The notes beneath the pieces were generated by a model. That model did not search any database. It saw only the letters and a program-made list of their open reading frames with translations, and was not told where the DNA came from. A stretch of DNA of 50,694 nucleotides from Eggerthia catenaformis OT 569 = DSM 20559 (GTDB taxonomy: Bacteria; Bacillota_I; Bacilli_A; Erysipelotrichales; Coprobacillaceae). Below, one piece after another: positions 16,941 through 48,558 of this stretch. The position numbers and the translations under genes are program-made. The stretch spans positions 1 to 50,694 of the forward strand of contig NZ_KB446648.1 of NCBI RefSeq assembly GCF_000340375.1. The letters are read 5' to 3'. Within the stretch, counting starts at the first letter, position 1; each line of letters starts with the position of its first letter.

Positions 16941-17225
16941 CTTTGACAACTGAATAGACCAAGGTAGGACTTTATCTGCTTGTGGAGAATTATGACTTAC
17001 GCCAAGACCTTTCTGCTAAAAAATATTTTGGTTCAATGAATACTGAGAAAATCAAGGAAACAAGGAAGCGAGCGACAAATAAGATTACATAAAAAACAGA
17101 TGTGGCAGTCTGTTCGTTGATACAGGCAGTGATAATGATACTTCAACAGTTTATGCCGGCTCGTCTTGAATAAGGGGCGGAGGTGAGATTCCTATGTTGT
17201 CAGCCAAGACACCTACCAATGTCAT
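16941..17225 (+). ncRNA. Conserved untranslated element upstream of tnpW (element 1 copy)
   Basis: No convincing gene lies between the sigma-like gene and 17265. This stretch shares a series of blocks, in the same order, with 23277-23550 on the minus strand of element 2: CTTTGACAA (16941); GGAGAAT then ACGCCA (16984-17004); GGAAGCGAGCGACAAATA (17064-17081); ATAATGATACT (17132); GGAGGTGAGATTCC (17179-17192). In both elements it sits between the sigma/HTH regulators and tnpW. A structured RNA or recombination/regulatory DNA site would explain this. I do not recognise the family. Confidence 0.45.
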
Positions 17226-23229: not shown

Positions 23230-23560
23230 ATTGATAAAATGGGCTTTAATCGGATGGCTATAAGCATTAGCCTCACGGGAATTTCACCCCTGCATGGTTC
23301 TCATCCAGCCCTACCCATTGCCTGCAACGCTTCTAACGCTCGGACTGTGGCTGTAAGGGAGTATCATTATATATTTTGTGCTGTCATGGCTTGCAAGGTG
23401 CTACGCTTGCTTTGCGGTAGAATATTTCTCGCTCGGCTTCCGTGTAGGGAAGTGTCATGGCGTATTCTCCGCACAGCTAAAGCACAAAAGGAAAGTGTCC
23501 GGTTTGCCCTATGATACGCCGCCGTTATCTTGCGGGTATGTTTGTCAAAGTACAGGCGGC
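23230..23560 (-). ncRNA. Conserved untranslated element upstream of tnpW (element 2 copy)
   Basis: Minus-strand counterpart of 16941-17225. The blocks in reading order are TTTGACAA (23550-23541), GGAGAATACGCCA (~23470-23458), GGAAGCCGAGCGAGAAATA (23441-23423), ATAATGATACT (23370-23360) and GGGGTGAAATTCCC (23290-23277). Frames here on either strand lack ribosome binding sites and family matches. Its place between the Orf8-like regulator and tnpW is the same as in element 1. Candidate structured RNA; type unknown. Confidence 0.45.
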
Positions 23561-23610: not shown

Positions 23611-23862
23611 TTAAATCTTGAAAATCAGGACAGCCTGCATGAGCTTTGAGCGAAGGCGATCTCGTATATCCTCGTCTATGCCGTAATAGGTATTTCCTCG
23701 TTCATCACGGAGTTTTCTCATAGAAAGGTGTGCGATATAGCCTGCGTAATGCTGGCAGACAATATTCATTGCCTGCGGCTCTCCTTTGGTTGCGGCTATG
23801 ATTACCGGATAAGGCAACAAGCCGCGTTCATCATCGGTTGTTTTACCAGTCCGGGTAGTCAT
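23611..23862 (-). CDS. Tn916 Orf8-like helix-turn-helix protein
   Basis: An 83-residue protein. The motif YPVIIAATKGEPQAMNIVCQHY followed by AGYIAHLSMR and DEDIRDRLRSKLMQAVL matches the HTH_16 family of conjugative transposon regulators (Tn916 Orf8 type). It overlaps the end of the upstream sigma-like gene by 20 bases. Together the pair is expected to control element 2 excision and transfer. Confidence 0.85.
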   Translation of the reverse strand: MTTRTGKTTDDERGLLPYPVIIAATKGEPQAMNIVCQHYAGYIAHLSMRKLRDERGNTYYGIDEDIRDRLRSKLMQAVLIFKI

Positions 23863-24295
23863 AAGCGTGTTCCTCCAAATAGCGTTTTAATAGCTCAAAT
23901 GAGCTGGTTCTCCGATACTGCACTGTGCTTCTTGGAATCTGATAGAGTGCCGCGATTTCCGCATCGCTCATATCAAAGAAGTAGTAGAGTAGAACGGCTC
24001 TGCGTTTTTCTTCCGGCAAGCTGTGAATCGCATCAGCGATCAGCTTTGCACCTAATGCTTTTCCGCCTGCGAAAAAGGTCTGTTCTTCTTTATCCTCCGC
24101 AAAGAAATCTTCACAGGTATAAAGCTGGTTTTCCTCTTTCGATGTCAGATCAGAAAAGTTAATTTCGTGTGCCTGCCGCTTCCTAATCTCCTTATGGGCA
24201 TTGATACTTTCGTTCTTCAATGTCCGCTTGCAGAAGCCGTTAAATGCGCAGCGTATCTGCCATTCGGTTCTTTCAGGTTCATTCATGGTATTCAC
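23843..24295 (-). CDS. Tn916 Orf7-like sigma-70 family factor
   Basis: A 150-residue protein. The C-terminal region-4-like HTH is HSLPEEKRRAVLLYYFFDMSDAEIAALYQIPRSTVQYRRTSS (given in parts: LPEEKRRAVLLYYFF; DAEIAALYQIPRSTVQYRR). The N-terminus (AFNGFCKRTLKNE) is typical of ICE sigma factors. ATG 24295 is preceded by AAAGGAGG. That Shine-Dalgarno abuts a 7-bp hairpin (GCGAAAG/CTTTCGC, 24299-24316) that could limit translation. It is followed by the HTH protein. Confidence 0.88.
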   Translation of the reverse strand: MNTMNEPERTEWQIRCAFNGFCKRTLKNESINAHKEIRKRQAHEINFSDLTSKEENQLYTCEDFFAEDKEEQTFFAGGKALGAKLIADAIHSLPEEKRRAVLLYYFFDMSDAEIAALYQIPRSTVQYRRTSSFELLKRYLEEHAYDYPDW

Positions 24296-24411
24296 CTCCT
24301 TTCGCAGCCGCGAAAGCGGGTAGAATTTCCCCTTTCGTAAACCCTCAACAACGCAGAGCCCAAAACTGCCAAAGAAAAGCGAATATTTTTAGAAAAAAGT
24401 TTTTGCAAGCA

Positions 24412-24444
24412 CAAAAAATCCCGACTGCATAGGGCAGCCGGGAT
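24412..24444 (-). terminator. Terminator between leader and sigma-like gene
   Basis: On the minus strand, ATCCCG + CGGGAT arms extended by CTGC/GCAG with one mismatch (24418-24444) are followed by TTTTTT. It lies ~120 bp upstream of the sigma-like gene, so read-through past it would be needed to express sigma from upstream promoters. Confidence 0.8.
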
Positions 24445-24484
24445 CGGACATGAAAAGATAACTATATGGATATGATTTAAGCAG

Positions 24485-24562
24485 TCATCCGTAAAGGCAC
24501 GGAAACCCGGAAATAGAATATATCCCTTTTAACAAGCTTTTAAGATAACGAAGAATGAACAC
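24485..24562 (-). CDS. Candidate 25-residue leader peptide
   Basis: GTG at 24562 with a perfect GGAGG 7 bases upstream opens a 25-codon frame (MFILRYLKSLLKGIY, then SISGFPCLYG) ending in TGA at 24485. Its ribosome binding site lies in a hairpin loop, and a terminator lies 41 bp downstream. This is the layout of an attenuation leader such as Tn916 orf12, but I do not recognise the peptide itself. Confidence 0.45.
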   Translation of the reverse strand: MFILRYLKSLLKGIYSISGFPCLYG

Positions 24563-24653
24563 GGCGATACCTCCTTTGATACCGCCGTTTTTCATAACCT
24601 ATAATTGATTTTAAGCCTCCGCTTCTTTATTCAAACAGGATAAAAACGGCGGT
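24560..24653 (-). promoter_or_regulatory. Alternative hairpins controlling the leader ribosome binding site
   Basis: On the minus transcript, ACCGCCGTTTTT (24653-24642) can pair perfectly over 12 bp with AAAAACGGCGGT (24592-24581). The CGGCG of that second segment can instead pair with CGCCG just before the GTG, trapping AAAGGAGG in the loop. The two folds exclude each other, so this looks like a translational or transcriptional switch. Confidence 0.5.
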
Positions 24654-24709
24654 CATATATAGCTTGTGTATTGCAACTTTTGCATAAGCGGGCTTCTCCT
24701 TAATAAAAT

Positions 24710-24751
24710 GAGCCGGCAATTACAGTTTCATAAACTGTGAATCACCGGCTC
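24710..24751 (-). terminator. Hairpin at end of the KTR gene
   Basis: GAGCCGG/CCGGCTC outer arms with an inner ACAGTTT/AAACTGT stem. The stop codon of the KTR gene lies in its 5' arm. Only a short T-rich tail follows, so it may be a terminator or an mRNA-stabilising stem. Confidence 0.5.
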
Positions 24752-24942
24752 TGTGTCTTTGCATCTGGCTCTTTGATGACTGATACATTAAATTGTTTTA
24801 CATTGATTAGCGTTTCCTGTTTGCACTTTGGACAGAACAGCGGAAAGTTTTTCAACTCCGTATCTTCTCTAACTTGCAGCCGTGTTTTATTCTTGCAAAC
24901 AGGGCAGAGTAACCATTGTCTTTCATCGTTTATATAATTCAT
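24742..24942 (-). CDS. Cysteine-rich KTR-domain protein
   Basis: A 66-residue zinc-ribbon-like protein with two CxxC pairs (LLCPVCKNKTRL and LFCPKCKQETL), typical of the Cys_rich_KTR family often found next to resistance genes on Tn916/Tn1549-type elements. The function is unproven. ATG 24942 is used; a TTG at 24951 is also in frame, and neither has a clear Shine-Dalgarno. No resistance gene is present beside it here; the ECF/ABC cargo takes that place. Confidence 0.8.
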   Translation of the reverse strand: MNYINDERQWLLCPVCKNKTRLQVREDTELKNFPLFCPKCKQETLINVKQFNVSVIKEPDAKTQSR

Positions 24943-24951
24943 TTCATACAA

Positions 24952-48307: not shown

Positions 48308-48409
48308 TTATCCGAACAGTCCGCGAAGAAGCGGAACAAGTGTTGTACCGATAAGGGCAACGCCTCCTCCTGCCATAAGCTGCTTGATTCCCTGTGATTT
48401 AGCGCCCGA
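48308..48409 (-). pseudogene. Maff2-family gene, 3' exon (split by group II intron)
   Basis: Thirty-three codons, GAKSQGIKQLMAGGG and VALIGTTLVPLLRGLFG after the first residue, match the C-terminal half of Maff2 proteins, small membrane proteins that precede TrbL in these operons (~65-70 residues). The 5' half is missing here because the intron lies in between; it should be beyond the right edge. Splicing would restore it, so it may not be truly inactive. Confidence 0.8.
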
Positions 48410-48452
48410 TAGTGATAGGTAATCCTTTGATGTTATCTCCGGATTTTCCCCC

Positions 48453-48489
48453 ACTTCACACCGTGCATGCGACTTTCACCGCACACGGC
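48453..48489 (-). ncRNA. Group II intron domain V
   Basis: On the minus strand GCCGTGTGCGG, TGAAAGT and CGCATGCACGGTG form the conserved 34-nt-type catalytic hairpin with the GTGAAAGT loop side. The following GGGGGAAAATCCGGAG region is domain VI-like and leads to the 3' splice site. Confidence 0.85.
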
Positions 48490-48558
48490 GTTCCATCACA
48501 AGAAAGATTTTCACGTTTTAACTAAGACTTACACACTTCGTAACAAATTATTTTTTCT

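Follow-up and report, generated by a model that had tools for sequence, protein, structure and literature searches.

The sigma-factor and HTH regulators of a mobile element in the window (the whole stretch of 50,694 nucleotides, read on both strands) are probably governed, with modest confidence, by a translation-dependent transcription attenuator with a frameshift gate. As judged by sequence comparison, the larger finding is a conserved leader before orf7-type genes with a likely gate of this kind. The leader element lies on the minus strand, where all parts named by the sequence-only reading were found: a 25-codon frame, a hairpin around its ribosome-binding site (RBS), a 12/12 upstream match, a terminator, and then the sigma and HTH genes. 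That reading placed GGAGG in the hairpin loop; the motif is indeed inside the hairpin, but it straddles the loop and the 3' arm. The parts are as follows, all on the minus strand.

24742 to 24951, minus strand: Cys-rich KTR gene (PF14205); the listed start is TTG, an ATG just downstream is also possible, and a hairpin follows near 24711-24752.
24653 to 24685, minus strand: possible upstream mini-ORF of 10 codons (MQKLQYTSYI) with AAGGAG present; its TGA adjoins segment 1.
24642 to 24653 (read 24653-24642), minus strand: segment 1, ACCGCCGTTTTT, a 12/12 match to segment 2; this pairing would release the leader RBS.
24592-24581, minus strand: segment 2, AAAAACGGCGGT, partner of segment 1 and also the 5' arm of the RBS hairpin.
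24561 to 24588, minus strand: RBS-sequestering hairpin 2:3 of 11 bp, formed by ACGGCGGTATC (24588-24578), loop AAAGGA and GGTATCGCCGT (24571-24561), based on the fold and on paired changes in relatives.
24574-24570, minus strand: leader RBS GGAGG, within hairpin 2:3.
24485 to 24562, minus strand: leader frame of 25 codons, VFILRYLKSLLKGIYSISGFPCLYG, from GTG 24562 to TGA 24485; the short frame is also present in relatives L118-L120 and is less alike in L121.
24295 to 24528, minus strand: stop-free +1 frame relative to the leader, crossing the terminator to the sigma RBS, with no in-frame ATG, GTG or TTG before the terminator.
24408 to 24445, minus strand: intrinsic terminator between leader and sigma gene, with a 12-bp stem (24445-24417), then a T-run; fold energy -20.0.
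23843 to 24286, minus strand: Orf7-like sigma-70 region 4 protein (PF08281), likely start ATG 24286.
23611 to 23862, minus strand: Orf8-like HTH_16 protein (PF12645).
23273 to 23370, minus strand: pemK RNA motif (RF02913), whose position matches the Tn916 antiterminator canT.

The sigma-70 region 4 gene followed by the HTH_16 gene corresponds to the Orf7/Orf8 module of Tn916-like elements. The window element as a whole reads serine recombinase, TnpW, pemK RNA motif, HTH_16 and sigma genes, leader, Cys-rich KTR gene, transporter cargo, MobC and relaxase, and its serine recombinase, TnpW, MobC and MobA-type relaxase are those of Tn6218/Tn4451-like mobilizable elements. The leader shows the three features by which the family is defined in this analysis, namely the 2:3 RBS hairpin with a competing 1:2 pairing, a terminator before an Orf7-like gene, and a shifted open frame through that terminator.

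According to dinucleotide shuffling, the fold energies of hairpin 2:3 and of the 1:2 duplex in the window are each reached by 0/300 shuffled sequences. In 17 sequences whose segments 1-3 were aligned manually by their pairing, so that the counts lean towards the helices, 90% of cells pair in helix 1:2 and 93% in helix 2:3; both partners have changed in 5/9 and 4/9 pairs, respectively. Slid controls for both helices give far lower pairing. In the S. aureus Tn916-like form, segment 2 contains GGCGACTT in place of GGCGGT, and segments 1 (about 19-bp pairing) and 3 are changed to match. The GTG start of the window leader lies at the foot of the 2:3 stem, and the hairpin covers most of this codon. 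As for the mini-ORF at 24685-24653, L118 has two synonymous changes and the E. yurii copy L008 has lost the frame; a ribosome terminating at its stop would cover segment 1. In L103, L014, L004, L019, and L030 another terminator-like hairpin upstream uses segment 1 as its 3' arm, which makes a third competing fold.

For comparison, plasmid records and two whole-genome searches supplied 100 Orf7-like loci, to which closer relatives of the window leader were added. Where the sigma match is strong, the main lineages have an RBS-in-hairpin leader with a terminator before the sigma gene; where it is weak, the loci are mostly without a recognisable leader. Both alternative stems recur with paired changes before sigma and HTH genes in Tn916, Tn1549, Tn6218/Tn4451-like elements, and S. 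aureus Tn916-like elements. Attenuation before the Orf7/Orf8 pair, as originally proposed, is thus well supported, with both stems, the short leader frame and the terminator conserved among relatives. Poor conservation had been named in advance as the observation that would speak against it: the stems and the short frame are kept, but the leader peptides are variable. This variability, together with the fact that terminators are common between modules, is what could be said for an arrangement with nothing regulatory in it, in which the upstream cargo operon simply ends at its own terminator and the small frames arose by chance. Such an explanation is very improbable, however, given the shuffling result for each stem, the recurrence with paired changes, and the same gene downstream in elements of differing cargo.

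Regarding cargo, leader-bearing elements carry tet(M) (Tn916 of pCF10), vanB (Tn1549), an rlmN/cfr-like gene (Monoglobus), and an ABC transporter (Vescimonas); the last two have a gene order near-identical to that of the window element and different cargo. The sequence-only reading took the absence of a linked resistance gene to mean a different inducing signal. This argument is weakened, since tet(M), vanB, cfr/rlmN-like, and transporter cargo are all followed by the same leader; the cargo therefore does not define the inducing signal. Two further copies were seen in passing. In E. yurii (L008/L066) the leader is 92% identical and the sigma gene is broken by three stops, so this element copy is decaying. 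The IMG/VR contig L012 has a Cfr/RlmN-like methyltransferase cargo directly before the leader (1154-2137), and this 'viral' contig thus carries a transposon. The window leader DNA gave no match in plasmids and phages, and searches of viral contigs by a fixed pattern and by the sigma protein were likewise without result.

Within the leader frame, 22 relatives, and so most of the leaders, have an in-phase A_AAA_AAA slip site (T[CT]AAAAAAA, phase xxA_AAA_AAA) 9-16 codons in; neither this A7 nor the open alternative frame through the terminator figured in the sequence-only reading. The -1 frame from the last A of A7 crosses the terminator stop-free in 22/22 and meets no stop before the sigma RBS in 19/22. 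Neither of the other two frames after A7, zero and +1, is open in any of the 22, with 1-8 stops each. Taking one sequence per 60%-identity cluster, the cluster-wise product of shuffle probabilities for the open -1 frame is ~1e-7. The last stop of this long frame mostly lies a few to 25 nt 5' of A7, and between that stop and the terminator ATG, GTG, and TTG are all absent from the frame in 17/21 A7 leaders, so that ribosomes could enter it there only by a change of frame. An independent start inside the long frame is accordingly ruled out for these 17/21 and, before the terminator, for the window subtype. The A7 is kept at the nucleotide level while the amino acids change between SKK and LKK. 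One locus with an A7 leader and no sigma gene seen (L128) has a -1 frame that closes within a few codons. In another (L123, 1769 onward) an A7 leader with an open -1 frame stands before a non-Orf7-like gene (53-aa frame, MKTINLKDYY...), which suggests that the leader may be reused before other genes.

The long frame is in phase with sigma in six sequences (e.g., Tn1549), as would be expected of a hidden protein or an N-terminal extension of the sigma factor. Elsewhere, however, it stops shortly past the sigma start, out of frame with sigma (Tn916 and others), or before sigma (a few). Moreover, substitutions by codon position in the long frame after the leader stop are 89/78/89 for Tn916-like sequences and 76/69/67 for the window type; this lack of third-position bias rules out a conserved protein and makes such a product highly improbable. 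It is the openness of the frame, not its peptide, that appears selected: had the observed substitutions fallen at random, stops in the long frame would often have arisen (P 0.03-0.19, distant pairs), and the pattern suggests maintenance of a ribosome path rather than of a product.

The slip could also belong to RNA polymerase rather than to the ribosome, with slippage on A7 yielding an mRNA fraction in which leader and long frame are continuous. The conserved feature is a pure A run, and L085, which has A8, has its long frame in +1, as this explanation would have it. The phase xxA_AAA_AAA, however, suits a ribosomal heptamer, seven A are short for polymerase slippage, and the A4 of the window could not be served in this way; polymerase slippage is therefore rated as improbable.

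Classical attenuation without frameshifting, in which the position or stalling of a ribosome on the leader picks the RNA fold and the open second frame is incidental, is an unlikely alternative of more weight. The RBS switch and the terminator are conserved, as it demands, and CCGGG of the window leader could pair with CCCGG of the terminator over 5 bp, a pairing kept with G-U in L118 and L120. Yet this antiterminator is weak and is missing from L121, there is no conserved stall peptide except the A7-encoded SKK/LKK, and stop avoidance in exactly the frame that A7 reaches is left unexplained. Counting against frameshifting itself are the early closing of the -1 frame in L128, the A8 with a +1 long frame in L085, and the lack of A7 in the window; moreover, no conserved stimulator (SD-like site or downstream pseudoknot) was demonstrated, and A_AAA_AAA slips less than A_AAA_AAG in E. 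coli (PMC5009743). A kissing pair between AAAAAAGCC and the terminator loop occurs in L013 only and is not general.

As for the window's own copy, CTTAAAAGC and TTAAAAGGG stand at the place of the relatives' A7. The window leader has no in-frame X_XXY_YYZ heptamer (-1 frameshift cassette), and a simple scan of the rest of the window found no A7-type leader of the standard kind. The stop-free frame of the window leader is +1 (24528 to 24295, shuffle P 0.025) and is shared by L118-L121, in which the stop ahead of it falls at the same position and the terminator region is reached without a start codon. Across these five sequences the shuffle P is 0.025-0.056 each, with every one of the four relatives at 0.04-0.06; owing to kinship these values do not multiply. 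Read-through of UGA is ruled out for the window leader, as the stops of L118 and L120 are UAA, and a +1 slip at AAA_G is rejected because the site is not kept in the same two sequences. UUU_C is the sole +1-prone site kept in all five, which is a weak argument. A functional frameshift in the window's exact sequence is thus possible but doubtful, and less probable than for the family.

The frameshift-gated attenuator would work in three steps. Pairing 1:2 would free the leader RBS and pairing 2:3 would hide it, making leader translation switchable, a structure deduced by comparison. Ribosomes staying in the leader frame would be released 12-70 nt before the terminator, which would then form and leave sigma untranscribed. 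Ribosomes that changed frame would enter the stop-free frame, cross the terminator, and reach the sigma RBS; the crossing would both block terminator formation and deliver ribosomes to sigma. The slip would be -1 at A_AAA_AAA in Tn916, Tn1549, and most relatives, and, with much less certainty, +1 in the window subtype, perhaps at the conserved UUU_C. Slippage would become more frequent when drugs or starvation slow or destabilise ribosomes, and this would switch excision and transfer on. Ribosome-inhibiting drugs are known to relieve Tn916 attenuation and to raise Tn916 excision and transfer (PMC9632896); we infer that orf7-leader frameshifting is linked to this activation.

Several known systems resemble parts of this scheme. 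In pyrBI-type attenuation the terminator cannot form when a ribosome follows RNA polymerase closely along the leader; the ribosome-prevented terminator is alike, but the pyrBI leader frame itself crosses the terminator, whereas here only the shifted frame does. For ermC, ketolide-induced frameshifting carries ribosomes past the leader stop, unfolds the downstream mRNA structure, and induces the gene (PMC5009743). The ermCL leader is similar in that frameshifted ribosomes open downstream RNA, but it controls translation of a resistance gene, while the window-type leader has a terminator before a mobile-element sigma gene and a switched RBS of its own.

The parallel drawn by the sequence-only reading with Tn916 orf12 stands as an analogy only. 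The orf12-tet(M) attenuator likewise has a short leader frame and then a terminator in the element's regulatory path; translation inhibitors relieve Tn916 attenuation (PMC9632896), and the published mechanism, in which fast ribosomes prevent stem-loops, leaves frameshifting unmentioned (PMC7288454). However, it precedes tet(M), while the window leader precedes sigma and so is not of the orf12 type, and Tn916 has both: besides the orf12-tet(M) leader, it carries its own leader directly before orf7, MKYIIYNKFPYIGFLSKKVVYLQ, without a CDS annotation in the RefSeq-derived table. Papers name 'orf10' as adjoining orf7 of Tn916. The upstream half of this Tn916 leader, including the RBS hairpin, is covered by Rfam RF03532 SQ2397 at 229.8 bits; the match begins at the orf9 end of the intergenic region and extends to the leader start. 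SQ2397 originated in an Rfam course, with a published list of RNAs as its source; the family ends just inside the leader and is described only as an HTH-factor cis-regulator (PMC7779021). The window leader had no match above the gathering score to the SQ2397 covariance model, and its membership in a known Rfam family was rejected, with chance-level hits only.

Another antitermination layer in the same regulatory transcript of Tn916 is the processive antiterminator canT (PMC11658703), which, unlike the orf7 leader and separately from it, is RNA-borne, lies 3' of orf8, and acts on T1-T3. The recent paper on Tn916 termination and antitermination deals with T1-T3 and canT, and with orf7 only as the Porf7 promoter. 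A pemK RNA (RF02913) lies between the orf8-like and xis/TnpW genes in the window (23273-23370, minus strand), L016 (5930-6030), L019 (5907-6004), L013 (5941-6038), and L014 (5879-5978). In Tn916 it occupies 283-383 nt past the orf8 stop, inside the experimentally mapped canT (229-390). The canT S3 mutation begins at 283, and PMC11658703 mentions neither pemK nor Rfam; the core of canT is probably this pemK RNA. Another pemK RNA motif of the window (17132-17197, plus strand) precedes two genes of about 560 codons in the neighbouring element, and a group II intron domain match (48409-48493, minus strand) adjoins a 622-aa ORF.

In the open-licence literature searched there was no report of an orf7-type leader, and a search on frameshifting in Tn916 gave nothing relevant. 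What appears new is the in-phase slip site with an open shifted frame in a leader before orf7-type genes, of which only the Tn916 upstream half is already in Rfam (as SQ2397). The use of frameshifting to control transcription termination would be unusual, and A7, as a defined and breakable slip site, makes the frameshift reading testable. More broadly, it is plausible, although this wider claim is held tentatively, that in a widespread class of mobile elements including Tn916 programmed frameshifting in the leader enables ribosomes to push RNA polymerase past a terminator and on into the excision and transfer regulators, and so reports ribosome distress. The usual account of drug-stimulated Tn916 transfer invokes only the tet(M) leader; a further leader directly before orf7 that does not depend on cargo would explain how elements lacking tet(M) could respond. 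The leader before sigma may thus be the means by which such elements detect ribosomes under stress and commit to moving.
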